The position numbers and the translations under genes are program-made. 49,175 nt of DNA from a virus. The DNA is taken from positions 1 to 49,175 of IMG/VR virus record IMGVR_UViG_3300037628_000192; one strand, written 5' to 3'. Shown one piece after another: positions 30,491 through 42,990 of the stretch (the first letter of the stretch is position 1; each line of letters opens with the position of its first letter). The notes beneath the pieces are model-generated. The model did not search any database and was not told the DNA's origin. It saw only the letters and a list, made by a program, of their open reading frames with translations.

Positions 30491-31017
30491 TGGCAAACAG
30501 TCAATCAATTACATCACTCACCGAGGCTCAGAAAGAACTCGCCCGGTATAAGTTCAAACATCCGCGCTCAACGAATAAGAAACTCGGCGAGAAGTTCGGC
30601 TGGGGTACGAATTGGGTGAACGTCGTCCGTAACTCAGAGCCATTTAAGAAGTTTATAGCTAAATTAGAGGCCCGGAAAACTGTTGCTGTCGTTGCAAGGC
30701 TGGCTAACTTCGAGGCCGAGACAATCATCAACGGTGCGGTTGCTCAGACCTACCTAGGGGATAGGTTGAATGAGGATATCGACGAGCAGGACATGGTTGG
30801 GAAGAAAATGAAGGACACCATAGCCATTAAAGCCGTGGATTCTTTACACAGACAGATAGAACGAACGGTTAAGACTCCAGGTGGTGATGATGCGGCTGGA
30901 AAAGTTAATATTGAGAACATGCAGGTGAATATAGATACAATGTCAATGAAAGATTTGATGGAATACATTATGAAAGGATCGTTGCCGGTTGTTAAACAGA
31001 TAGAGGGGGGAGGATAA
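30490..31017 (+). CDS. terminase small subunit (probable)
   Basis: The 175-aa protein has an N-terminal helix-turn-helix-like region (residues 10-50: LTEAQKELARYKFKHPRS, KKLGEKFGWGTNWVNVVRN). A helical middle and a flexible Gly-rich C-terminus follow. This layout matches small terminases that bind packaging-site DNA and deliver it to the large subunit, encoded two genes downstream. The start has no direct ribosome binding site and may depend on the upstream leader. The call rests on architecture and position. Confidence 0.65.
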   Translation: MANSQSITSLTEAQKELARYKFKHPRSTNKKLGEKFGWGTNWVNVVRNSEPFKKFIAKLEARKTVAVVARLANFEAETIINGAVAQTYLGDRLNEDIDEQDMVGKKMKDTIAIKAVDSLHRQIERTVKTPGGDDAAGKVNIENMQVNIDTMSMKDLMEYIMKGSLPVVKQIEGGG

Positions 31018-31190
31018 TGGAAAAGAACCAACTAGGAATATGTGCTACTTGTCATTGGTTCGAGGGAGACAGGGAAAATGATGAATTAATGGGCCATTGT
31101 CATTATGATTCACCATCTATGGCAGGATTCCCTTGTATTTATCCTGATAACTGGTGTGGAGATCACAAAGATCAACTCAAGGGGGGATAA
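31017..31190 (+). CDS. small Cys/His-rich protein
   Basis: ATG 31017 overlaps the previous stop (TAATG) and gives 57 residues. Cys9, Cys12, Cys28, Cys40 and Cys47 with several His suggest a metal site: CATCHWF, GHCHYD, GFPCIYP, NWCGDH. The pattern is common in small environmental phage proteins. The stop overlaps the next gene. Confidence 0.6.
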   Translation: MEKNQLGICATCHWFEGDRENDELMGHCHYDSPSMAGFPCIYPDNWCGDHKDQLKGG

Positions 31191-33394: not shown

Positions 33395-33409
33395 AAGGAG
33401 GGCAATAAA

Positions 33410-33565
33410 ATGGATAAAGAATTTAAAATAGGGTCAAAATGTAATTCAGACAAGGATGAGCATGTTTGGATTTATTTTACAACCGCAGACAAGACGTTTT
33501 GTGATCCATATAAAAAATGTCAATGTGGTGAAAAATCTTACGCTCCGAACAATACGGTTGAGTAA
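33410..33565 (+). CDS. small Cys-containing protein
   Basis: ATG 33410 after AAAGGAGGG gives 51 residues. Cys11, Cys31, Cys37 and Cys39 (CDPYKKCQCG) could hold a metal. It ends directly before ATG 33566. No family is recognised. Confidence 0.55.
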   Translation: MDKEFKIGSKCNSDKDEHVWIYFTTADKTFCDPYKKCQCGEKSYAPNNTVE

Positions 33566-33637
33566 ATGGCTTGGGACGTTGTTTTCGACCAAAAGACCAT
33601 AACAAAGGAAAATAACAATGGCTTGGGACGTATTATT
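33566..33637 (+). CDS. 24-aa frame echoing the next gene's N-terminus
   Basis: The frame begins MAWDVVFDQKTITKE, close to MAWDVLFESKTVVKD of the gene at 33618, with ATGGCTTGGGACGT identical. The reading ends inside the next gene start, so the two overlap out of frame. It looks like a duplicated gene start left by recombination. Confidence 0.4.
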
Positions 33638-33959
33638 TGAGTCTAAAACTGTCGTAAAAGACACCACTGAAACATCCGCTCGTGCGTACCTGTCAGATGG
33701 CAAGAACAACCATGCTATTCAATATAAACTCACAGGTGACGGAACTCTTGACTTATATGTGGATACCAGTATAGATGGTGAGGACTGGATCAGTAACGGT
33801 ATCAAGGCTGATGACATAACGGATACGTCCGGGCCAGGCAGTGATGGTAAAGACATTATACCACTATCACTTAAACCAGGGGAGTTCCTGCGTGTACGAG
33901 CCACAGAAGTTACGACATCAGACGATGTTGTTTTAATGCTCTGGCTGGTGCAGAAATAA
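33618..33959 (+). CDS. small beta-rich virion candidate
   Basis: The 113-aa protein is entirely beta-like (YKLTGDGTLDLYVDTSIDGE, FLRVRATEV). It resembles small phage appendage or decoration proteins. AAAGGAAAA precedes the start. It opens the fibre gene block. No family is established. Confidence 0.55.
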   Translation: MAWDVLFESKTVVKDTTETSARAYLSDGKNNHAIQYKLTGDGTLDLYVDTSIDGEDWISNGIKADDITDTSGPGSDGKDIIPLSLKPGEFLRVRATEVTTSDDVVLMLWLVQK

Positions 33960-33979
33960 CATAACTACAAGGAGGGATT

Positions 33980-34165
33980 ATGACGTTTGAAACAGCAACA
34001 GAAACAGAAGAAGCTCTAGTTAGCACTAATCAAGAACTTGAAATCGTGATCGAGAAAAAGTCCTTCTTTGGGGGTTACAAGAAAATCACCATAAGAGGAT
34101 ATAAAAAAGACGTTCCTGAAATCATAGAGTTTTGTCAAAAGGGACTGGAAGGGATGAAAACGTAA
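33980..34165 (+). CDS. small hypothetical protein
   Basis: The 61-aa protein has AAGGAGGG upstream. It has an acidic N-terminus, a central beta segment (FFGGYKKITIRGYKK) and a C-terminal helix. No family is recognised. Confidence 0.55.
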   Translation: MTFETATETEEALVSTNQELEIVIEKKSFFGGYKKITIRGYKKDVPEIIEFCQKGLEGMKT

Positions 34166-34166
34166 C

Positions 34167-36002
34167 ATGGCTTGGCTACCTGGATTTGTTAGATGGTTTA
34201 AAGACACTTCAGCTCCTGGGGTTGGTGATGATATTAATGAGGGGTATGAAGTCACCGATATTATCGTTGATGAAACCAATGGTAAGGCATACATCTGTGT
34301 AGATAACGCAGCAGGGGCAGCAGATTGGAATCAGATAGATGCAGCAGCAGGAGCAGGAGCCGTTGCTAACACTGACTTTGATGCTACAACTTTCCTTTAT
34401 GCTACTCTTGACGACACTCCTGAACCTAAGACACCAGCCGAAGTTATGGCCATCCTTAGTGGTGAAGCTGGGGCTGAGTTCTTATTTAATACCCAGAAGA
34501 TTGGTGGTGTTGTTGATCCCACAACAGATCAGCAAGCTGCAACTAAGAAATATGTAGATGATAATTCAGGTGGAACAGTTGATACAAGTGGTACTCCTGT
34601 CGATGATGATTTTGCTAAGTTTACGGACGCAGATACGATTGAGGGACGATCTTATTCGGAAGTGAAACAAGACCTCAGCCTTGAGGATTCCGACATTAAT
34701 ACTCTCATTACAGCGACTAAGATAGACGACCTAACCGCCGGAGATGATAATACAGACCTTGATGCCGACACCTCTAATCATGGCTTACTCCCTAAGGGAG
34801 ATGGTGATGAGCACCACTTCTTAGATGGGAATATCGCTTGGAGCCTTCCCACTGTTACCTTAAATGTTAGAAAGGGGAGTGCAGGGACAGTCACTCTCAT
34901 GAAGGCCGTTTATGCTGATGGTTGGAATGCTTCTGGATGGATTGAGGTAGAACTTGCCGATGCCGACGATGCAGCTAAGATGCCCTGTATTGGTCTTGTA
35001 GCGGAGGCTTCTATCGGAGTAGGTGGAGGTGGGCATGTTATAATGTCTGGCGTTCTTACCGGACTGGATACCTCTGGGTTTAGTGTTCTAGATGAGTTGT
35101 ATGTAGATACTACAGCTGGTGATCTGACAGCAACTAAGCCAACAGGGTCTACTACTGATGTTCAAAAAATCGGGTTGGTGTTGAGGGCTCATAACGGCTC
35201 AGGAATTATTTTGGTCTTTGGTGCAGGTAGGGCAAATGATATTCCCAACACAATAACTCTACCTGATGGTAACAGCATCAACCTTCAAGAGAGTATTACT
35301 TTTACCGGAGCTACGGGTGAGAATCAGATCAAAATGCCCGATATCTTGGCTGATGCACTCTCGATCCAAGAAGGGGCTAATAAGTATGTTACTTTCAAAA
35401 CTACTAATGGAGCCGAACTTGTCCAGATCAATAAGAAGATCCTTTCTGTCTTGAACCTCTACTTCAGTGATGAGGGAGGGGAACATATTCTAGGGGATGG
35501 GATGGATCTAACAATCGCCTCCGGGGGGGATATTAACCTTAATGCTACAGCTGATGTAAATCTTGGTGGTACGTTGGATCTCAACGAGAACGCAATAGAT
35601 CTCACCACTGGTCTTGCAGATACGAAGTATGAAGGTTTCACTGCTACTTTCACAGCTGGCGAGAACCTGACCATAGGTGAGCTTTGCTACTTCAAACCCG
35701 GGGATTCCAAGATGTGGCAGTGTGATGGAGATGCTCTGGCCACAACCACAGGACTTCTCGCAATAGCTACAACAACTATAAGTGCTGATGCGTCTGGGGT
35801 ATTCCTTCTCTGGGGATTTATTAGGGATGATGGAGCTTTTGCATATACCGCTGGAGATGAGCTTTACGTTAGCCTTACTCCTGGAATACCAACAGCTACG
35901 ATTCCACCTGCAGCGGGGGACTTTGTACGAGTTGTTGGAAATGCTATAACTGCCGATGTTATAATGTTTAACCCGAGTAATGATATTATAGAAAGAGTCT
36001 AG
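34167..36002 (+). CDS. tail fibre / appendage protein
   Basis: The 611-aa protein begins with a small beta domain (residues 1-60). The motif DQQAATKKYVDD near residue 125 is typical of fibre connector segments. Long beta-rich repeats follow, including GGDINLNATADVNLGGTLDL at about 450-470, which resembles a triple-helix fibre shaft. The C-terminal 110 residues form a Gly- and Thr-rich cap. It probably binds the host surface. The start ATGGCTTGG is shared with several neighbours. The stop overlaps the next start (TAGTG). Confidence 0.7.
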   Translation: MAWLPGFVRWFKDTSAPGVGDDINEGYEVTDIIVDETNGKAYICVDNAAGAADWNQIDAAAGAGAVANTDFDATTFLYATLDDTPEPKTPAEVMAILSGEAGAEFLFNTQKIGGVVDPTTDQQAATKKYVDDNSGGTVDTSGTPVDDDFAKFTDADTIEGRSYSEVKQDLSLEDSDINTLITATKIDDLTAGDDNTDLDADTSNHGLLPKGDGDEHHFLDGNIAWSLPTVTLNVRKGSAGTVTLMKAVYADGWNASGWIEVELADADDAAKMPCIGLVAEASIGVGGGGHVIMSGVLTGLDTSGFSVLDELYVDTTAGDLTATKPTGSTTDVQKIGLVLRAHNGSGIILVFGAGRANDIPNTITLPDGNSINLQESITFTGATGENQIKMPDILADALSIQEGANKYVTFKTTNGAELVQINKKILSVLNLYFSDEGGEHILGDGMDLTIASGGDINLNATADVNLGGTLDLNENAIDLTTGLADTKYEGFTATFTAGENLTIGELCYFKPGDSKMWQCDGDALATTTGLLAIATTTISADASGVFLLWGFIRDDGAFAYTAGDELYVSLTPGIPTATIPPAAGDFVRVVGNAITADVIMFNPSNDIIERV

Positions 36003-36301
36003 TGGGCGCACATATTCAATGGCTTAAAGAACAAGACGGACAAATTGGAGTGTTCCGGTGTGGAGAGGGGTTCAACAAATTTGGTGATCCCTGGGAAATG
36101 GTGTCTGTAATTCAACGCACAAAAGATGGTGGTGTGCATATGTTCGGAGTTCAAAGCAATATGAGACCTACGCAGCTTTTTAAATTTAAGAAAGATATCG
36201 AAGAATTAATGAGACAAGAGTGCGTGAGTTATATCATTTGGGAAAAGCTAAGATCTGATAGAACCATGAAGCATGTTAGGGTAGATATTAAGGGGGACTA
36301 A
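36002..36301 (+). CDS. small protein with GTG start
   Basis: GTG 36002 overlaps the fibre stop and gives 99 residues. The protein has an alpha/beta look with HMFGVQSNMRPTQLFKFKKD and no known motif. It lies among fibre genes, so it may be a chaperone or fibre accessory; this is inference. Confidence 0.6.
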   Translation: MGAHIQWLKEQDGQIGVFRCGEGFNKFGDPWEMVSVIQRTKDGGVHMFGVQSNMRPTQLFKFKKDIEELMRQECVSYIIWEKLRSDRTMKHVRVDIKGD

Positions 36302-36302
36302 A

Positions 36303-36836
36303 ATGTCAATAACATCAACCGAAATATTAGAAGATTCAGCACAGGCTGATGGCAGTCGCCACATTGGAGTGAAGTTTAACTTCCATAACGGTCAGGAAGT
36401 TGTCAGACGCTTTTGGGTAGATTCATTGTTTGATACCGTAACCGATATTGCAGCGATGGAACCAGGAATTGAAGCCTATATGATCGAACAAGACGATGAG
36501 GAAGTAATGGCTCAGATTGAAAAGGGCAATATTGCTCCGTTATCTGCTCAACCTGTTCACCCTGAAACCATTTCTGCCAATGATCGTAAAAAGCGATTGG
36601 TTAGAAAACTACTCCGTAAAATGATGCAAGAGAGAGATATGAAACTTGTTAGAAAAATGCTCTATCCAATCTGGAAATGGCTGAAATATGACTCCGGTTT
36701 TACCGCCACTCAGATAGCTAATTATTTCAATATCTCACTTGCAAAGCTCGGAACCATCAACTCCCGCTTCCAGGCAATACACGACAACCTCACCATGATT
36801 GACGCAGACGATGGGTATCTTGGGGAGGTGGACTGA
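36303..36836 (+). CDS. hypothetical protein of the fibre block
   Basis: The 177-aa protein has a beta-rich N-terminal half (GVKFNFHNGQEVVRRFWVDS). The C-terminal half is strongly helical and basic (KKRLVRKLLRKMMQERDMKL). AAGGGGG precedes the start. It overlaps the next gene by one base. It may be a fibre-assembly protein, but no family is recognised. Confidence 0.6.
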   Translation: MSITSTEILEDSAQADGSRHIGVKFNFHNGQEVVRRFWVDSLFDTVTDIAAMEPGIEAYMIEQDDEEVMAQIEKGNIAPLSAQPVHPETISANDRKKRLVRKLLRKMMQERDMKLVRKMLYPIWKWLKYDSGFTATQIANYFNISLAKLGTINSRFQAIHDNLTMIDADDGYLGEVD

Positions 36837-38158
36837 TGGCTACCTTCTATGTTGATTCGGCGGCAAGCGGAGATGATGGTGGAAGTAACTGGACAAATGC
36901 CTTTCCAGATTTAGCGACTGCTTTTGCGGATGCTGGTACAGTAGCCGGGTCCGACCTTCTTGTGGATGATGGTCATAGTTTTACCCCAGATGCTATAATT
37001 ACATACTCATCTAAAGGTACTCTTGCTGCACCCGTAAATGTTTATGTCGTAGATAAGGCAGACGACTCCTATGCTGGCAAGTCTGGAACTGGTAGTAATG
37101 CAGCGATAGAGGACAATACGGCTGGTCTTCATACTATTTATACAGATGGGTTTGCTAATGTTTACGGAGTTCATTTTAAAAGTGGGGGAAATATCATTGG
37201 AGGTGCTACCAATGATAATGAAACATGGCAGTTTATTGATTGCGTTTTGGAAGTTGCATATAACAATGCAGCCGCAGAGTTGTTTGAGCCAGAGGCCGGG
37301 CAGTGCTGGAAATTGTTTAATACTGACATTAAATTTGCACATACGGGCGGTTCAATCGTTATGGCAGCCGGAGCGGTTTTCGAATGGTTTGGGGGAACTT
37401 TACTAACTACAGACACAGCACAACTTGTGGAAGAACACTTTAACCTCGGCGGTATTTTTAGGGCTAGAGGTGTTGATTTAAGCATCATGAACGGTGGAGC
37501 TATTTTCAATGGTTTTGGATTCGGTACAAATGAAGCTGGATTTTACGGCGAAATAGTCGGCTGCAAACTCAATGCAACTCCACCAGCACTTGTCACAGAC
37601 ACACCCGCAGTAGACGGCGTCTATCTCGCCATGATCGGATGCGGAAGTGCCGGAGTTCCACAGACTCATATTCATACGAGCCAGGGGGATGTTACCCAGG
37701 AAACTTCGGTAGTCCGAACTGCAACCTATGACGGCTCAAACAAATATTCTTTTGAGATGATCTCAAACGTCAATGCTGATTTTCACACTCCGCTGAGATT
37801 CAAACTTGCTGAAATCTGGTGTGCTGCTGATCCTACGCTGACCGTAGAATGTACCCACGATGCACAAGGGAGTGAAGCAGGCGGCAATTTTGGAGATGAT
37901 GAGTTCTGGATTGAAGTTGAGCATCCAAACGATACGGTGGCTGCATATCGAAATTGGGATAGAACCTCACGAATGGCAACGCTCGGTTCGTCTACTATAC
38001 GAGATGCAGGAACATCTGGAGATTGGACAGCGGGCAAGACGGATTTTGATAAGTGCGAAGAAGTGATAAACAGTAGCGCAGGAATCCATACGATATGGGC
38101 CTGCCTTGGGGTTGCAAGCAAGACAGTTTATGTATGTCCTAAAATTGATGTGAGCTAA
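36836..38158 (+). CDS. beta-helix fibre / tailspike-like protein
   Basis: The 440-aa protein starts ATFYVDSAASGDDGGSNWTN, a common opening of secreted right-handed beta-helix proteins. Repeating short strands run to about residue 260. A beta-sandwich-like C-terminal part with conserved Cys and Trp follows. Such proteins bind or cleave polysaccharide. No catalytic residues could be assigned, so binding rather than cleavage is also possible. GGGGAGGTGG precedes the start. Confidence 0.65.
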   Translation: MATFYVDSAASGDDGGSNWTNAFPDLATAFADAGTVAGSDLLVDDGHSFTPDAIITYSSKGTLAAPVNVYVVDKADDSYAGKSGTGSNAAIEDNTAGLHTIYTDGFANVYGVHFKSGGNIIGGATNDNETWQFIDCVLEVAYNNAAAELFEPEAGQCWKLFNTDIKFAHTGGSIVMAAGAVFEWFGGTLLTTDTAQLVEEHFNLGGIFRARGVDLSIMNGGAIFNGFGFGTNEAGFYGEIVGCKLNATPPALVTDTPAVDGVYLAMIGCGSAGVPQTHIHTSQGDVTQETSVVRTATYDGSNKYSFEMISNVNADFHTPLRFKLAEIWCAADPTLTVECTHDAQGSEAGGNFGDDEFWIEVEHPNDTVAAYRNWDRTSRMATLGSSTIRDAGTSGDWTAGKTDFDKCEEVINSSAGIHTIWACLGVASKTVYVCPKIDVS

Positions 38159-38380
38159 ATGGCAGATACAAGTTGGGAATATGTAATACCCGGTGCCGGG
38201 ACTTACAATGACACTTCACAGGACTTTGAGCCGGTTGTGCCTGGGGTTGGGACTGTTAATGAGGGGGCTACGGCAGCTCCGGGGGGTTGGACTCATAAGT
38301 GGAACACAATAGCTGCTGCGAATATGGCTAAGATTAATACAATACCAAAGGCAAATATAGCTAAGATTAACACTATATAA
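38159..38380 (+). CDS. small repeat-containing fibre-block protein
   Basis: The 73-aa protein has two short internal duplications: IPGAGTYND with VPGVGTVNE, and NMAKINTIPK with NIAKINTI at the end. Such direct repeats suggest slippage or a small trimeric shaft. It starts directly after the beta-helix gene. No family is recognised. Confidence 0.55.
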   Translation: MADTSWEYVIPGAGTYNDTSQDFEPVVPGVGTVNEGATAAPGGWTHKWNTIAAANMAKINTIPKANIAKINTI

Positions 38381-38392
38381 GAAGGATAAGAA

Positions 38393-38812
38393 ATGATACC
38401 TACGCAAGGAGCAGTTAGAAGTTTTTCAGATAAAGCAATCTCAATGTTTCCGATTAAGATGAGATTGTTTCAGGTTGCCTGGACAAGCAGTGCAGACACT
38501 AATGGAGGCGCTGATTTGTTCACATGTGTTACTGATATTGACATTACTGGTTGGATACACGAAATAGAGACTGATCCAGATGGAACTACAGCACCGACGG
38601 CTGCTTATGATATTACCTTAATAAACGCTAATGGTAGGGATGTCGCAGGGGGAGCCCTTGCCAATAGAAGTGCTACAGCTACCGAGATAGTTAAACCTCT
38701 TGTGAACAGTATCCAGCAAAAGGTTATTAGCCACGGGCCGTTGACAATCACCATCACCGCTGCTGGAGATGAGAAAAAAGGCGAACTCTTAATCTACTAC
38801 GAGCCTTTTTAA
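38393..38812 (+). CDS. beta-rich appendage protein, paralog A
   Basis: The 139-aa protein shares its whole length with the next gene: MRLFQVAWTS, FTCVTDIDITGWIHEIETDP, NGRDVAGGALANR, IVKPLVNSI and GPLTIT are matched by near-identical segments. The pair arose by tandem duplication. A virion decoration or fibre-tip role is plausible. AGAAGGATAAG precedes the start. Confidence 0.65.
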   Translation: MIPTQGAVRSFSDKAISMFPIKMRLFQVAWTSSADTNGGADLFTCVTDIDITGWIHEIETDPDGTTAPTAAYDITLINANGRDVAGGALANRSATATEIVKPLVNSIQQKVISHGPLTITITAAGDEKKGELLIYYEPF

Positions 38813-38824
38813 GGAGAAAGTGAA

Positions 38825-39226
38825 ATGAAGCCAAGTGCAGGAACAGTTAGAACCTATTCAGATACATCAATCGGCAAGGGCAGGATGCGGTTGTTTCAAG
38901 TAGCGTACACGACTCATGCAAGTGCCGGGACGTTTACTTGTGTTACCCCCTTAGATATTACCGGCTGGATACATGAGGTGGAGACAGACCCGGCTCCCTC
39001 CACACCCCAACCTGATGATAACTACAGCATTACGTTAAAGAACTCAAACGGTCGGGATGTTATGGGTGGCGCTTTAGCTACTAGGGATGAAACCAATACG
39101 GAGATGGTTAAACCGATTGTTAATAGTATTTGGCAGAAAGCATGGAATGAAGGTCCACTCACTATTGCTGTAACCGTTGCCGGGAACAGTAAAGAGGCAG
39201 AGTTATTAATATATTATGAAGCATAA
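38825..39226 (+). CDS. beta-rich appendage protein, paralog B
   Basis: The 133-aa protein is the second copy of the tandem pair, with MRLFQVAYTT, FTCVTPLDITGWIHEVETDP, NGRDVMGGALATR and GPLTIA. It differs in the N-terminal 20 residues. AAGGAGAAAG precedes the start. Two versions may build a hetero-oligomer. Confidence 0.65.
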   Translation: MKPSAGTVRTYSDTSIGKGRMRLFQVAYTTHASAGTFTCVTPLDITGWIHEVETDPAPSTPQPDDNYSITLKNSNGRDVMGGALATRDETNTEMVKPIVNSIWQKAWNEGPLTIAVTVAGNSKEAELLIYYEA

Positions 39227-39247
39227 GAATGAAAAAGGAGAAATAAA

Positions 39248-39391
39248 ATGAACCTTACAATTATTTTAAACTTACTCAAAGATCATCCAGAGTTATTGGG
39301 GCAGCTTATACCTCTCATTGGTCCGATCACAGAGCTGGCAAACACCATCAACGAGATTCTGGATAAAATTAAGGCGATCGTGGAATCGTGA
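39248..39391 (+). CDS. small amphipathic helical protein, holin-like candidate
   Basis: ATG 39248 after AAAAAGGAG gives 47 residues: MNLTIILNLLKDHPELLG and then a hydrophobic helix (QLIPLIGPITELANTINEIL) and a charged end. The hydrophobicity is moderate, so membrane insertion is possible. It overlaps the next gene by four bases and starts the lysis block. Confidence 0.5.
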   Translation: MNLTIILNLLKDHPELLGQLIPLIGPITELANTINEILDKIKAIVES

Positions 39392-39633
39392 GCTTAAAAA
39401 GGATCAGATTAGCGATTTGCTTGATAATCTTTTTTAGCCTCCTGGCCATCTCTTGTGCTGCTCCCAGGGGAGATGCAGCCAAGCAATACGAGCAGGCGAT
39501 TAGTATTTATTGCTCCGCTCCGAATTGTAATGTCAGCATAACTGTGACTACCTCCGTAGCTGCCGATGTTAAGAAGGACCAAAAGGCAGATGCTAAGGCT
39601 GATATTAGCCCGACTTTGGATATAGCGCCATGA
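39388..39633 (+). CDS. small lipoprotein, o-spanin candidate
   Basis: GTG 39388 gives 81 residues. A basic start and a hydrophobic helix (residues 8-20) lead to AISC with Cys23, a weak lipobox. The mature chain is short and contains Lys and Ala repeats (KKDQKADAKADIS). Phage outer-membrane spanins have this form. No partner i-spanin is recognised next to it. The overlap GTGA couples it to the previous gene. Confidence 0.5.
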   Translation: MSLKRIRLAICLIIFFSLLAISCAAPRGDAAKQYEQAISIYCSAPNCNVSITVTTSVAADVKKDQKADAKADISPTLDIAP

Positions 39634-39659
39634 AAGACTGTTACAGGAAGGATTAAACG

Positions 39660-39788
39660 ATGCGAAGAATTGTAATTGCCGTAATTGTCCTAGTCTTAAT
39701 CGCTAGTTGCTCCTGGGGGAAAAAAACTTCGCCTGGATGGGCGAGCAATGCAAGTCCAACTGAGGTTATGGAGGAGCTGTATTTCTAA
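39660..39788 (+). CDS. second small lipoprotein
   Basis: ATG 39660 gives 42 residues with a hydrophobic signal and IASC at Cys17, a good lipobox. The mature part has only 26 residues. AGGAAGGA precedes the start and the stop overlaps the next start (TAATG). Two lipoproteins in a row suggest outer-membrane action during lysis in a Gram-negative host. Confidence 0.55.
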   Translation: MRRIVIAVIVLVLIASCSWGKKTSPGWASNASPTEVMEELYF

Positions 39789-40213
39789 TGATCGAGATGC
39801 CCATACTCAGACCCGTTCCTATCCCGACTAAGGGGTTATCCTTTTGGAAGCGGATTGGGGTGTGGAGACATACGACCCGGAAATGGGAAGTTATGGAGGA
39901 TTGGGATTATCCTGGGTTCCATATACCAAAAGGATTTATCTTTGACGGTGCTTCAATACCACGGCCTTTGTGGTGGTTCTTATCTCCTGTTGGGTTATTA
40001 CTCATTCCAGGATTAATACACGATTGGGGGTATAGGTACAATACTGGTAGCGGAGTGAAATCTAATATAAGCGATAGAGGGATTTGGGATATACTCTTTC
40101 GGCAAATTATTAAAGAAGTGACCGACACAACCATAATCCCCTGGATAGCCTGGGCAGCGGTGAGAATCGGTGGCTGGAAAGCGTGGAGAAAACATAGGAG
40201 GAATGATGCCTGA
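39788..40213 (+). CDS. DUF1353 family protein
   Basis: The 141-aa protein matches DUF1353: KWEVMEDWDYPGFHIPKGFI, FDGASIPRPLWWFLSPVG and a GLIHDWGYR motif, with a C-terminal hydrophobic segment. Members are frequent in tailed phages near lysis or tail genes. Their activity is not established; His and Asp in IHDWGYR suggest an enzyme. It may be the missing lysis enzyme here. Confidence 0.75.
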   Translation: MIEMPILRPVPIPTKGLSFWKRIGVWRHTTRKWEVMEDWDYPGFHIPKGFIFDGASIPRPLWWFLSPVGLLLIPGLIHDWGYRYNTGSGVKSNISDRGIWDILFRQIIKEVTDTTIIPWIAWAAVRIGGWKAWRKHRRNDA

Positions 40214-41207
40214 TTGTAGTAAGATTTGTAAGAACTTTGATCCGATAGATGTACCAAAGCCAGTACCGCCGACTCCACCTGTTCCTCCCCCTCCTATTCC
40301 TAAACAAAGGTATCTAGTCCCTGGAGGGAAATGGTTTAAATACTCAGACACCGGGAGGAAGGTCTATCTGGCTTTTCAGGCAGACCCGGAGAATTGGATC
40401 TGGCGCTCTGTTGGTCAACGGAACAAGATTGTGAATAACATGATTAAATTCGGGGGAAATGCTCTCAGCCTCTATTCAATTATGACTCATGGGGGAGATG
40501 CCAAATGGGAGAACCGAACGGATATGAATCCCTTTAACAAGTTTGAGGCTCGGCATGGAGTTAATCCTGGAATCTTACAAGCATGGTTTGGAATAGCTCA
40601 GAGGATGGACGCTCGTGGGAAGATTCTCATTTGGAACTGGAGAGATGATGAAACTCGACCTTATGGTAAAAACAAGATGATGGTGAAAGCCGAGAAGGGT
40701 TATTTTGATGCGGTCATAGCTAAATTTAAGGGGCTTACTCATTTAGTCTGGATGGTAGCGGAAGAATATCAGGAGATTATGTCTCGGAAATACGCTATCG
40801 AGTGCGCCCGTTATATAAAAGACAGAGATCCGTATCATCCGGTGGTGATTCATCAGACAGGGGGAACTTCCTTCAATTTCGCTGGGGTTAAATACAAAGG
40901 CAAACCCCTGTTCGACTCATTTTTTATGCAAGTCAAGGAGATACAGACTCGCACGGAGTTGAGAAGCAGACTCAGAGAAGCTGTTAAGCAAGCCAGAGGC
41001 CGCTATAACATCTGTATGTTTGAAGGCACGAATCGAGATGGGGTACGGTGGGGACACGGAGCAGAGGCCATGAAATGGGCTGAGATATGTGCTGAAGAAG
41101 GCGCTTATTTCGGCTGGTATGATCGAGGCCAGAACAAGTTCACCGCAAAAGAGCTAAAATTCCTACAACAGTTAAGGCTAAAGATGGAGAGGAAAATCAA
41201 TGGGTAA
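40203..41207 (+). CDS. TIM-barrel glycoside-hydrolase-like protein
   Basis: ATG 40203 or 40206 follows AGGAGG and gives about 334 residues. A Cys-containing start and a Pro-rich linker (PVPPTPPVPPPPIP) lead to a domain with GGNALSLYSI, KILIWNWRDDE, HLVWMVAEEY and HPVVIHQTGG. The order fits a glycosidase (alpha/beta barrel) in which a Glu of VAEEY could be catalytic. It may degrade host surface glycan or act as the cell-wall enzyme. The C-terminal ERKING is written by the translation cassette of the next gene. A family was not assigned. Confidence 0.55.
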   Translation: MMPDCSKICKNFDPIDVPKPVPPTPPVPPPPIPKQRYLVPGGKWFKYSDTGRKVYLAFQADPENWIWRSVGQRNKIVNNMIKFGGNALSLYSIMTHGGDAKWENRTDMNPFNKFEARHGVNPGILQAWFGIAQRMDARGKILIWNWRDDETRPYGKNKMMVKAEKGYFDAVIAKFKGLTHLVWMVAEEYQEIMSRKYAIECARYIKDRDPYHPVVIHQTGGTSFNFAGVKYKGKPLFDSFFMQVKEIQTRTELRSRLREAVKQARGRYNICMFEGTNRDGVRWGHGAEAMKWAEICAEEGAYFGWYDRGQNKFTAKELKFLQQLRLKMERKING

Positions 41208-41598
41208 ATCGTTTTATATTTGTATAGATTTTGATGGAACAATTGTTGACCACAGATATCCAGATATAGGGCCATTGGCTCCGTTTGTTCTTTATTGGCT
41301 GGAACATTTCAAGGTTCATGAAGATAAACTTATTCTCTTTACCATGCGTTCTGGTAAACACTTGGAAGATGCTGTTGAATTTTTACATGAGTGTGGAATA
41401 GAATTATTCGGTATAAACAGGAATCCAGACCAAGACTCATGGACTGATAGCCCAAAAGCATATGGACATATCTATATTGACGATGCCGCAATTGGTTGCC
41501 CCATGATTCATCCAGAAGGCTTTTTGCGGCCCTGTGTTGATTGGAATGCAGTTGGGAATCTCTTAGAAGCCAAACGGGAGAGGAAAATCAATGGGTAA
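41186..41598 (+). repeat. 22-bp repeated translation cassette (two copies)
   Basis: The sequences 41186-41207 and 41577-41598 are identical over 22 bases. Each holds a GAGAGGAAAA ribosome binding site, an ATG and the upstream TAA stop in overlapping frames. Each therefore adds ERKING to the end of one protein and MG to the start of the next. Confidence 0.85.
41200..41598 (+). CDS. HAD-like hydrolase
   Basis: The 132-aa protein has HAD motif I DFDGTIVD (Asp10, Asp12), motif II TMRSGK (Thr48-Lys53) and motif IV IDDAAIG (Asp94, Asp95). It is a minimal HAD fold without a large cap. Substrates of such phage enzymes are usually nucleotides or sugar phosphates. It ends ERKING, as does its upstream neighbour, because the 22-base cassette at 41577-41598 repeats 41186-41207. 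Confidence 0.8.
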   Translation: MGKSFYICIDFDGTIVDHRYPDIGPLAPFVLYWLEHFKVHEDKLILFTMRSGKHLEDAVEFLHECGIELFGINRNPDQDSWTDSPKAYGHIYIDDAAIGCPMIHPEGFLRPCVDWNAVGNLLEAKRERKING

Positions 41599-41773
41599 CG
41601 AGAAGCTGTATGAGGATATTGGCTATATAAAAGCAAAGATTGAAATGATCTCAAAATATTTCGAGAAGAATGGTTTGATTGAGGATGTTAGGGGGAACAA
41701 AATATCTATCTTGTGGCTACGTTTATTTGTGCTGGCAATTCTAGCGTTTATCATCAATCTATCATTTAAATAG
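41591..41773 (+). CDS. single-span holin-like protein
   Basis: The 60-aa protein has an N-terminal charged coiled helix (residues 1-38) and one C-terminal membrane span (ISILWLRLFVLAILAFIINL). This layout occurs in class III-like holins and in small signalling peptides. Its place after the hydrolase genes favours a holin. GAGAGGAAAA is the ribosome binding site. Confidence 0.6.
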   Translation: MGNEKLYEDIGYIKAKIEMISKYFEKNGLIEDVRGNKISILWLRLFVLAILAFIINLSFK

Positions 41774-41784
41774 GAGAAAGGAAG

Positions 41785-42615
41785 ATGAAAAAGCTATTTG
41801 TAATATTGTTCGTTCTACTGTTCGTGGTATTCGCGGGTATTGCAGAGGCAGATAACGGGTATAATACTACTGTAACGGCTAAAAGGAGTGAGATAAACCC
41901 TAAAACTATCTGTCCTGAAACTCGCTATTCTAGTGAATCTCGATGTCAAGATTGTCACACGCTAAGGTTGGATAAGGATGGTGAACCCTTTTGGGGGCTG
42001 AAAGAAACCGACCCTCATAATGCTTTTGAGTATCCCAATGGGTATCTCAGGTTTGAAAACTTAAAATCAGAAAAGATGACTGCTTATTATATGCTTTCCA
42101 ACATAAGCGAAACGGCCTTTGCCGAAGCTATGGAATACACCGTTAATAGGCATGGGATTAAAGATGTTACAATCGAAATCTATTCCCCTGGAGGGGGTAT
42201 TTTCGCAGGTAGAAAGATTGTTGGGTTAATGGAGCATTATAAAACAGAGGGTGTTGTTTTCACGACTAAAACTTATGGCCTAACAGCCAGTGCCGCTACA
42301 TGGATTTTTGCCGCAGGGAATATCGGGCATCGGTATGCTTTTAGTGCTGCTGAATTTATGTTTCATGAACTAATACAATTTCAATTTTCAATGGGCATTA
42401 CAATTTCGTCTCCTGCGGATAAAGAGGATGAGGCTAAGATATTGAGACATCTAAACGATACCACCTCTCACTATATCGCCTCCCGCTCTAAGTTGACTAA
42501 AGAGGATATCGATGCTCGGACTCGTAAAAAGCAATTTTGGATGACAGGTAGTGAGGCGTTTGAATACGGGTTAGTGGACCATCTGATAGCATCAGAAGAT
42601 ATTTTTAAGGAATAA
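41785..42615 (+). CDS. secreted ClpP-like protein with a c-type haem motif
   Basis: The 276-aa protein begins with a signal peptide (MKKLFVILFVLLFVVFAGIA, cut near AEA-D). Residues 43-58 have Cys43 and the haem-binding motif CQDCH (54-58) followed by T, as in multihaem cytochromes. Residues about 90-270 form a ClpP/SppA-like fold: SPGGG (134-138), TASAAT with Ser169, FHEL with His194 (25 residues later, as in ClpP) and EYGLVD near the end. The residue aligned with the ClpP Asp is Gln250, so the triad may be altered. It would act in the periplasm, perhaps as a protease or protease-like binder. GGAGAAAGG precedes the start. Confidence 0.75.
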   Translation: MKKLFVILFVLLFVVFAGIAEADNGYNTTVTAKRSEINPKTICPETRYSSESRCQDCHTLRLDKDGEPFWGLKETDPHNAFEYPNGYLRFENLKSEKMTAYYMLSNISETAFAEAMEYTVNRHGIKDVTIEIYSPGGGIFAGRKIVGLMEHYKTEGVVFTTKTYGLTASAATWIFAAGNIGHRYAFSAAEFMFHELIQFQFSMGITISSPADKEDEAKILRHLNDTTSHYIASRSKLTKEDIDARTRKKQFWMTGSEAFEYGLVDHLIASEDIFKE

Positions 42616-42639
42616 TGTCTAAAAAAAAGGAGGGATATA

Positions 42640-42864
42640 ATGGGATTTAAAAAAGAAGTCCGGGCGTTCATGGCAGAGCGAAATGCTGAAAAGGGTTTAG
42701 TAATACAGCTCCAAAAACAAAACCAGGACTTGATGGATAGGCTAATGGCGAGTAATTTCGGAGAGTTAAAGACATACGCTCCTAACCCGGAATGGAAAGA
42801 ACCGGAAAAAGAAGAGTACGATCCGACTAAAGACGAAACAACTGCGGGGTTAATGGTAGAATAA
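42640..42864 (+). CDS. small charged protein
   Basis: The 74-aa protein has an N-terminal helix with many Lys and Glu and an acidic C-terminus. AAAAAGGAGGG precedes the start. It is the last gene before a terminator. No family is recognised. Confidence 0.6.
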   Translation: MGFKKEVRAFMAERNAEKGLVIQLQKQNQDLMDRLMASNFGELKTYAPNPEWKEPEKEEYDPTKDETTAGLMVE

Positions 42865-42922
42865 ACTAGCTAAAATACGGGTTCTGCTGAGGTAGGCCAA
42901 CTGAGGCAGACGTAAGAAATTT

Positions 42923-42967
42923 AAAGGGATAATGTGGTGTCCACATACATCATGTTGTCCCTTTTTA
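42923..42967 (+). terminator. rho-independent terminator before the portal gene
   Basis: AAAGGGA and TCCCTTT form the outer stem around GTGG-TGT-CCAC, and TTTTTATTT follows. It ends the lysis block, so the portal operon probably has its own promoter or partial readthrough. Confidence 0.75.
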
Positions 42968-42990
42968 TTTGCCCGTAACAGGAAAATTAA

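Follow-up and report, generated by a model that had tools for sequence, protein, structure and literature searches.

In its usual form, ClpP is a chamber in the cytoplasm that is fed by an ATPase. What, then, could be the role of a viral ClpP-like protein that begins with an apparent export signal, and does the CXXCH motif close to that signal carry haem? We examined the corresponding gene in IMG/VR record IMGVR_UViG_3300037628_000192, of which the whole stretch of 49,175 nucleotides was analysed (referred to as the window). The features of the locus are listed in Table 1.

Table 1. Features of the ClpP-like gene and its surroundings (window coordinates)
Feature	Position	Strand	Basis or remark
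Exported ClpP-fold protein (very probable) with CXXCH N-terminal module, 276 aa	41785..42615	+	ORF and RBS, PF00574, BLASTP with L196
Ribosome-binding site AGGAGAAAGGA	41772..41782	+	Sequence; graded strong
Putative signal peptide, residues 1-22, KK, hydrophobic core, AEA before D	41785..41850	+	Sequence, hydrophobicity heuristic
Conserved Cys/His module, C43-P44, C54-x2-C57-H58, ... LKETDPH78	41911..42018	+	Five Cys/His positions kept in L196
CQDCH, residues 54-58	41944..41958	+	Sequence
ClpP-fold domain, residues about 96-272	42070..42600	+	AF2 on 63-sequence alignment; Foldseek PDB
Ser169, nucleophile position	42289..42291	+	Invariant, 63/63
His194, catalytic His position	42364..42366	+	Invariant, 63/63
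Six-residue insertion after catalytic His	42370..42387	+	Absent from other 62 viral ClpPs in alignment
Gln250, third triad position	42532..42534	+	Other 62 aligned: Glu 49, Asp 11, Thr 2
60-aa gene, helical N-terminus and C-terminal TM segment, XhlA/holin-like architecture	41591..41773	+	11 bases upstream of the ClpP-like gene
74-aa gene, conserved before portal in relatives; right border of cargo interval	42640..42864	+	tblastn, 11 loci of relatives
TerL-portal cargo interval, podophage-like group	33395-42990	n/a	About 9.6 kb here; 0.3-5.9 kb in relatives

A ClpP fold behind an export-type N-terminus

The gene is one unbroken ORF of 276 codons. Its product starts with MKKLFVILFVLLFVVFAGIAEA, followed by DN, which by sequence resembles a Sec-type signal that ends in AxA. 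This agrees with the sequence-only reading, which had proposed a signal peptide; the export-type N-terminus with its AEA site was recognized from the letters and a hydrophobicity heuristic. The same reading had described a ClpP-like domain with Ser169 and His194 at a spacing of 25 residues. Here the Pfam family PF00574 (CLP_protease; E 7.4e-22, 78.5 bits against a cut-off of 20.2) and the structure search gave the same answer, and both residues proved to be invariant.

A structure prediction from the single sequence was poor (pLDDT 46) and was superseded by an AF2 model of one chain, for which the window protein was aligned with 62 other viral ClpPs. The ClpP core of this model has a pLDDT mostly above 90 and superimposes on solved ClpPs with an rmsd of 1.8 A; the best Foldseek match in the PDB was 6hwn_C (E 8.9e-13, TM(target) 0.75). 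Structure prediction and search of both parts had been suggested along with the original reading, and they succeeded for the core but not for the N-terminal part, which is modelled as disordered (for most of residues 25-82, pLDDT is below 50) and found no PDB match of note. We consider it very probable that the gene encodes an exported ClpP-fold protein.

The protein resembles ClpP (peptidase family S14) in its fold, the SPGG loop, the Ser-His spacing and a C-terminal EYGLVD. It differs in adding the export-type N-terminus, a Cys/His module and the insertion after the catalytic His, and in having Gln at the Asp position; moreover, no ATPase partner would be expected for it outside the cytoplasm. 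The S49 peptidases of the SppA, SohB and NfeD type belong to the same superfamily and share the proposed compartment. However, they use a Ser-Lys pair, whereas the window protein keeps His194 as in ClpP, and its match to PF01343 (E 0.076) is below the cut-off.

A Cys/His module shared with one other phage protein

The only cysteines of the protein, C43, C54 and C57, all lie within the first 60 residues. H58 completes the motif CQDCH, and H78 is nearby in LKETDPH. The CXXCH that had been pointed out in the region of residues 54-59 is thus present, and it recurs as CFACH in the one phage homolog with CXXCH that our search recovered. This full-length homolog (L196) is encoded on an 11.5 kb contig (L268, the whole of IMGVR_UViG_3300033150_000493) of a distantly related phage from an environmental sample. 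It was found by a scan tuned to the ClpP motifs of the window protein, whose queries included artificial alignment rows that keep only these motifs, and was confirmed when the natural protein served as tblastn query. The two proteins are 32% identical over 274 columns (BLASTP 2e-53), and the two contigs also have a tail gene in common (24% identity).

L196, too, starts with a signal-like sequence of its own, and it contains CPKNGMTENCFACH and LKETNPHDAYNYP; both members thus begin with what looks like a signal peptide according to sequence and the hydrophobicity heuristic. Its module reads CP-x7-CFACH and LKETNPH, with C43, C54, C57, H58 and H78 all kept, and an insertion similar to the six residues of the window protein, but shorter, follows the catalytic His. 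When the two N-terminal segments were aligned alone, they scored 72, compared with 25 +/- 4.8 for shuffled sequences, none of which (0/5000) reached this value. Among the 700 ORFs (60 aa or longer) on contigs of the phage group, CXXCH occurs in only two, the window gene and its full-length homolog; both belong to the 27 that the hydrophobicity heuristic scored as exported. We regard the Cys/His module as a conserved feature, because five Cys/His positions persist at 32% overall identity, the N-terminal alignment scores far above shuffles and CXXCH is so rare among these ORFs. CXXCH thus appears to be a real feature of the family, since the motif, the extra Cys and the second His are all retained in the sole close homolog.

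Like c-type cytochromes, the protein has CXXCH behind a Sec-type signal, as well as a possible distal His. Unlike them, it has a single CXXCH and a third conserved Cys, and the module matched neither a cytochrome profile nor any Pfam family up to E 10. The N-terminal half as query gave no match in phages, plasmids or Pfam.

About 110 other viral ClpP homologs were recovered by profile-like scans, none of them with a signal or CXXCH. In the sequence-only reading, homologs lacking CXXCH at this position would have counted against haem; what we found is the opposite, since those without the motif also lack a signal peptide and belong to other subfamilies. Matches on Azospirillum plasmids that aligned from residue 25 turned out to be ClpPs without signal or CXXCH and were rejected as members. 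Scans of the viral and genome collections with 8-mers of the single protein returned no match, a viral scan with the two-member alignment yielded no third member, PADLOC gave no match, and no periplasmic or secreted ClpP was found in the literature. ClpPs that combine an exported-type N-terminus with a conserved Cys/His module are, as far as these sequences tell, known so far from two phages. This appears to be a real protein design, hitherto undescribed, because a virus that is related to the window phage and was sampled from the environment keeps the same module.

Small Cys-rich proteins are encoded in both genomes (window 31017-31187 (+); L268 10886-11134 (+)). They have the pattern CATCHWF or CNTCYWW ... 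HC and resemble each other (5 of 2000 shuffles were as good). Both are likely metal-binding, and their use of a CXXCH-like motif is probably non-haem. Since the short ORF with CATCH at about 31.0 kb looks like a cytosolic metal-binding protein, a CXXCH motif alone is no proof of haem.

Genomic neighbourhood and host

The window phage has a P22-like portal, and its capsid has relatives in 37 viral records and in one deltaproteobacterial MAG. The 74-aa gene starts 24 bases after the ClpP-like gene, and the portal gene lies 0.4 kb downstream of the ClpP-like gene. In this podophage-like group, the interval between TerL and portal is a hypervariable cargo region. In the window it contains tail-fibre-like proteins, a small lipoprotein (39388), a DUF1353 protein (39788), a glycosidase-like protein (40206), a HAD-type phosphatase (41200), the TM gene and the ClpP-like gene. 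The relatives have tail-fibre-like proteins with signal-like starts as well as genes of the lysis type: an M15-like peptidase (endolysin-like; E 2e-4, below the cut-off), DUF1353, a small lipoprotein and TM proteins. None of the 37 viral records with a homologous capsid has a ClpP match, though many of them are fragments. Because of its place in this interval and the lack of ClpP in the capsid relatives, the gene looks like cargo and not like a part of head assembly.

The PHROG matches of the TM gene next to it are all weak (hemolysin, E 0.098). A TM gene adjoins the ClpP-like gene in L268, too; homology of the two neighbours was rejected after a negative sequence test.

The capsid relative in the MAG (Deltaproteobacteria MAG Meg19_1012_Bin_441) shows 45% identity and lies on a 35-kb contig. 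This contig, a prophage or a binned phage, is the sole hint at a host. The MAG carries two strong Cytochrom_C_asm genes. Searches of 395 and 297 genomes of its phylum returned either no match or ClpPs that look ordinary and cytoplasmic, with alignments beginning near residue 105-125, and L196 as query had no match in genomes of this phylum.

Proposed function and competing explanations

That two phages apparently export a ClpP fold bearing a conserved Cys/His tag implies a role in the envelope that does not depend on ATP. We know of no description of such a role for the ClpP fold. There is about an even chance, in our view, that the protein is an exported Ser-His hydrolase working in the envelope of the host at a late stage of infection, with haem on its CXXCH where the host has a Ccm system. 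It would be made with a Sec-type signal and be translocated in an unfolded state. Where the host has a system for cytochrome c maturation, haem would then be bound covalently to CXXCH; His58 would be the proximal ligand, and the conserved His78 is a candidate for the distal one. Once folded in the periplasm, the ClpP domain would need no Clp ATPase and would act on envelope polypeptides that are small or unfolded. Export, haem attachment, peptidase activity, the substrate and a connection to lysis or the envelope are all things that we infer; the connection to lysis is suggested by the gene neighbourhood.

Should the tag hold haem, protease and cytochrome would be combined in one chimeric protein, a rare instance in which a phage makes use of its host's cytochrome maturation machinery. 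To our knowledge, periplasmic zinc sites are uncommon. Even so, an exported ClpP-fold hydrolase without haem, whose C43, C54, C57 and H58/H78 hold zinc or provide a structural disulfide, is only slightly less than an even prospect. Three conserved Cys and two conserved His suffice for a CCCH zinc site, a third conserved Cys (C43) is not expected at a plain mono-haem site, the small proteins of the same genomes use CxxC[H/Y]W and need not be haem proteins, and the cytochrome profiles are silent on the N-terminal module. On the other side stands the permissiveness of the maturation machinery. System I needs little beyond CXXCH, attaching haem even to 12-residue peptides (PMC3601427), and does so on engineered Sec-exported non-cytochromes as well (PMC6962350), so that, where System I operates in the periplasm, a CXXCH that arrives there through Sec is generally loaded, and haem on the window protein is likely if its host has such a system. 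Weighing these points, we see the probabilities that haem is or is not attached to CXXCH as evenly balanced. A more elaborate version, in which a periplasmic ClpP-type protease with covalent c-type haem has its activity or targeting coupled to the haem or redox state and, as infection ends, attacks proteins of the envelope or of electron transport, seems rather doubtful.

Two other explanations concern the ClpP domain itself. By family-level comparison, the best matches are phage head-maturation proteases (PHROG 94; NCBIfam NF045542; phage D3 orf5), with which the core motifs are common. Taken with the PHROG scores (6e-22) and the position shortly before the portal, this could mean that the gene encodes a prohead protease whose hydrophobic N-terminus is incidental. 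We think this very unlikely. The window protein reaches 56 bits with NF045542, against a cut-off of 120, and has a signal-like N-terminus and CXXCH; head-maturation proteases lack a signal and CXXCH. In L196 the signal-like start and the Cys/His module are conserved. In annotated D3 and AH07, the head protease lies between the portal and capsid genes, a place occupied by other genes in the window phage. As the ClpP-like gene is instead located in the hypervariable cargo interval, beside a gene with a single TM segment, it is probably not a head-maturation protease.

It is also conceivable, though unlikely, that the protein is a catalytically dead ClpP fold that binds envelope proteins, either for superinfection exclusion or by blocking a receptor or a cytochrome. 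The sequence-only reading had noted Gln250 at the Asp position, and the alignment of 63 sequences bears this out: the third triad residue, acidic in family S14, is Glu or Asp in 60 of the 62 other proteins and Thr in the remaining two. The window copy thus appears to have an altered third triad residue within a ClpP-like family, and it may be weak or inactive because Gln250 replaces an acidic residue. In addition, the gene is sporadic cargo, like many exclusion genes. However, Ser169, His194 and the SPGG loop are intact, and in L196 a Glu takes the place of Gln250, which makes it probable that the family is catalytic. For the window protein itself, we lean towards catalytic activity. The reading that we prefer remains an exported ClpP-fold hydrolase.

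Other genes of the cargo interval

The glycosidase-like protein (40206-41207) has a proline-rich N-terminus and a match to the Apiosidase-like family PF13204 below the cut-off (E 2e-5). It is found in the interval in which relatives have the M15-like endolysin, and it is possible that it is a lysis enzyme. The HAD-type phosphatase (41200-41598) matches the NCBIfam BT0820 family (E 2e-23, below the cut-off) and PHROG 1238, 'phosphoheptose isomerase' (E 6.5e-27); it is likely an accessory metabolic gene. Two large tail-fibre-like proteins of relatives (L140 1988-4803 and L156 1278-5200) start with sequences resembling signal peptides, which is odd for virion proteins.
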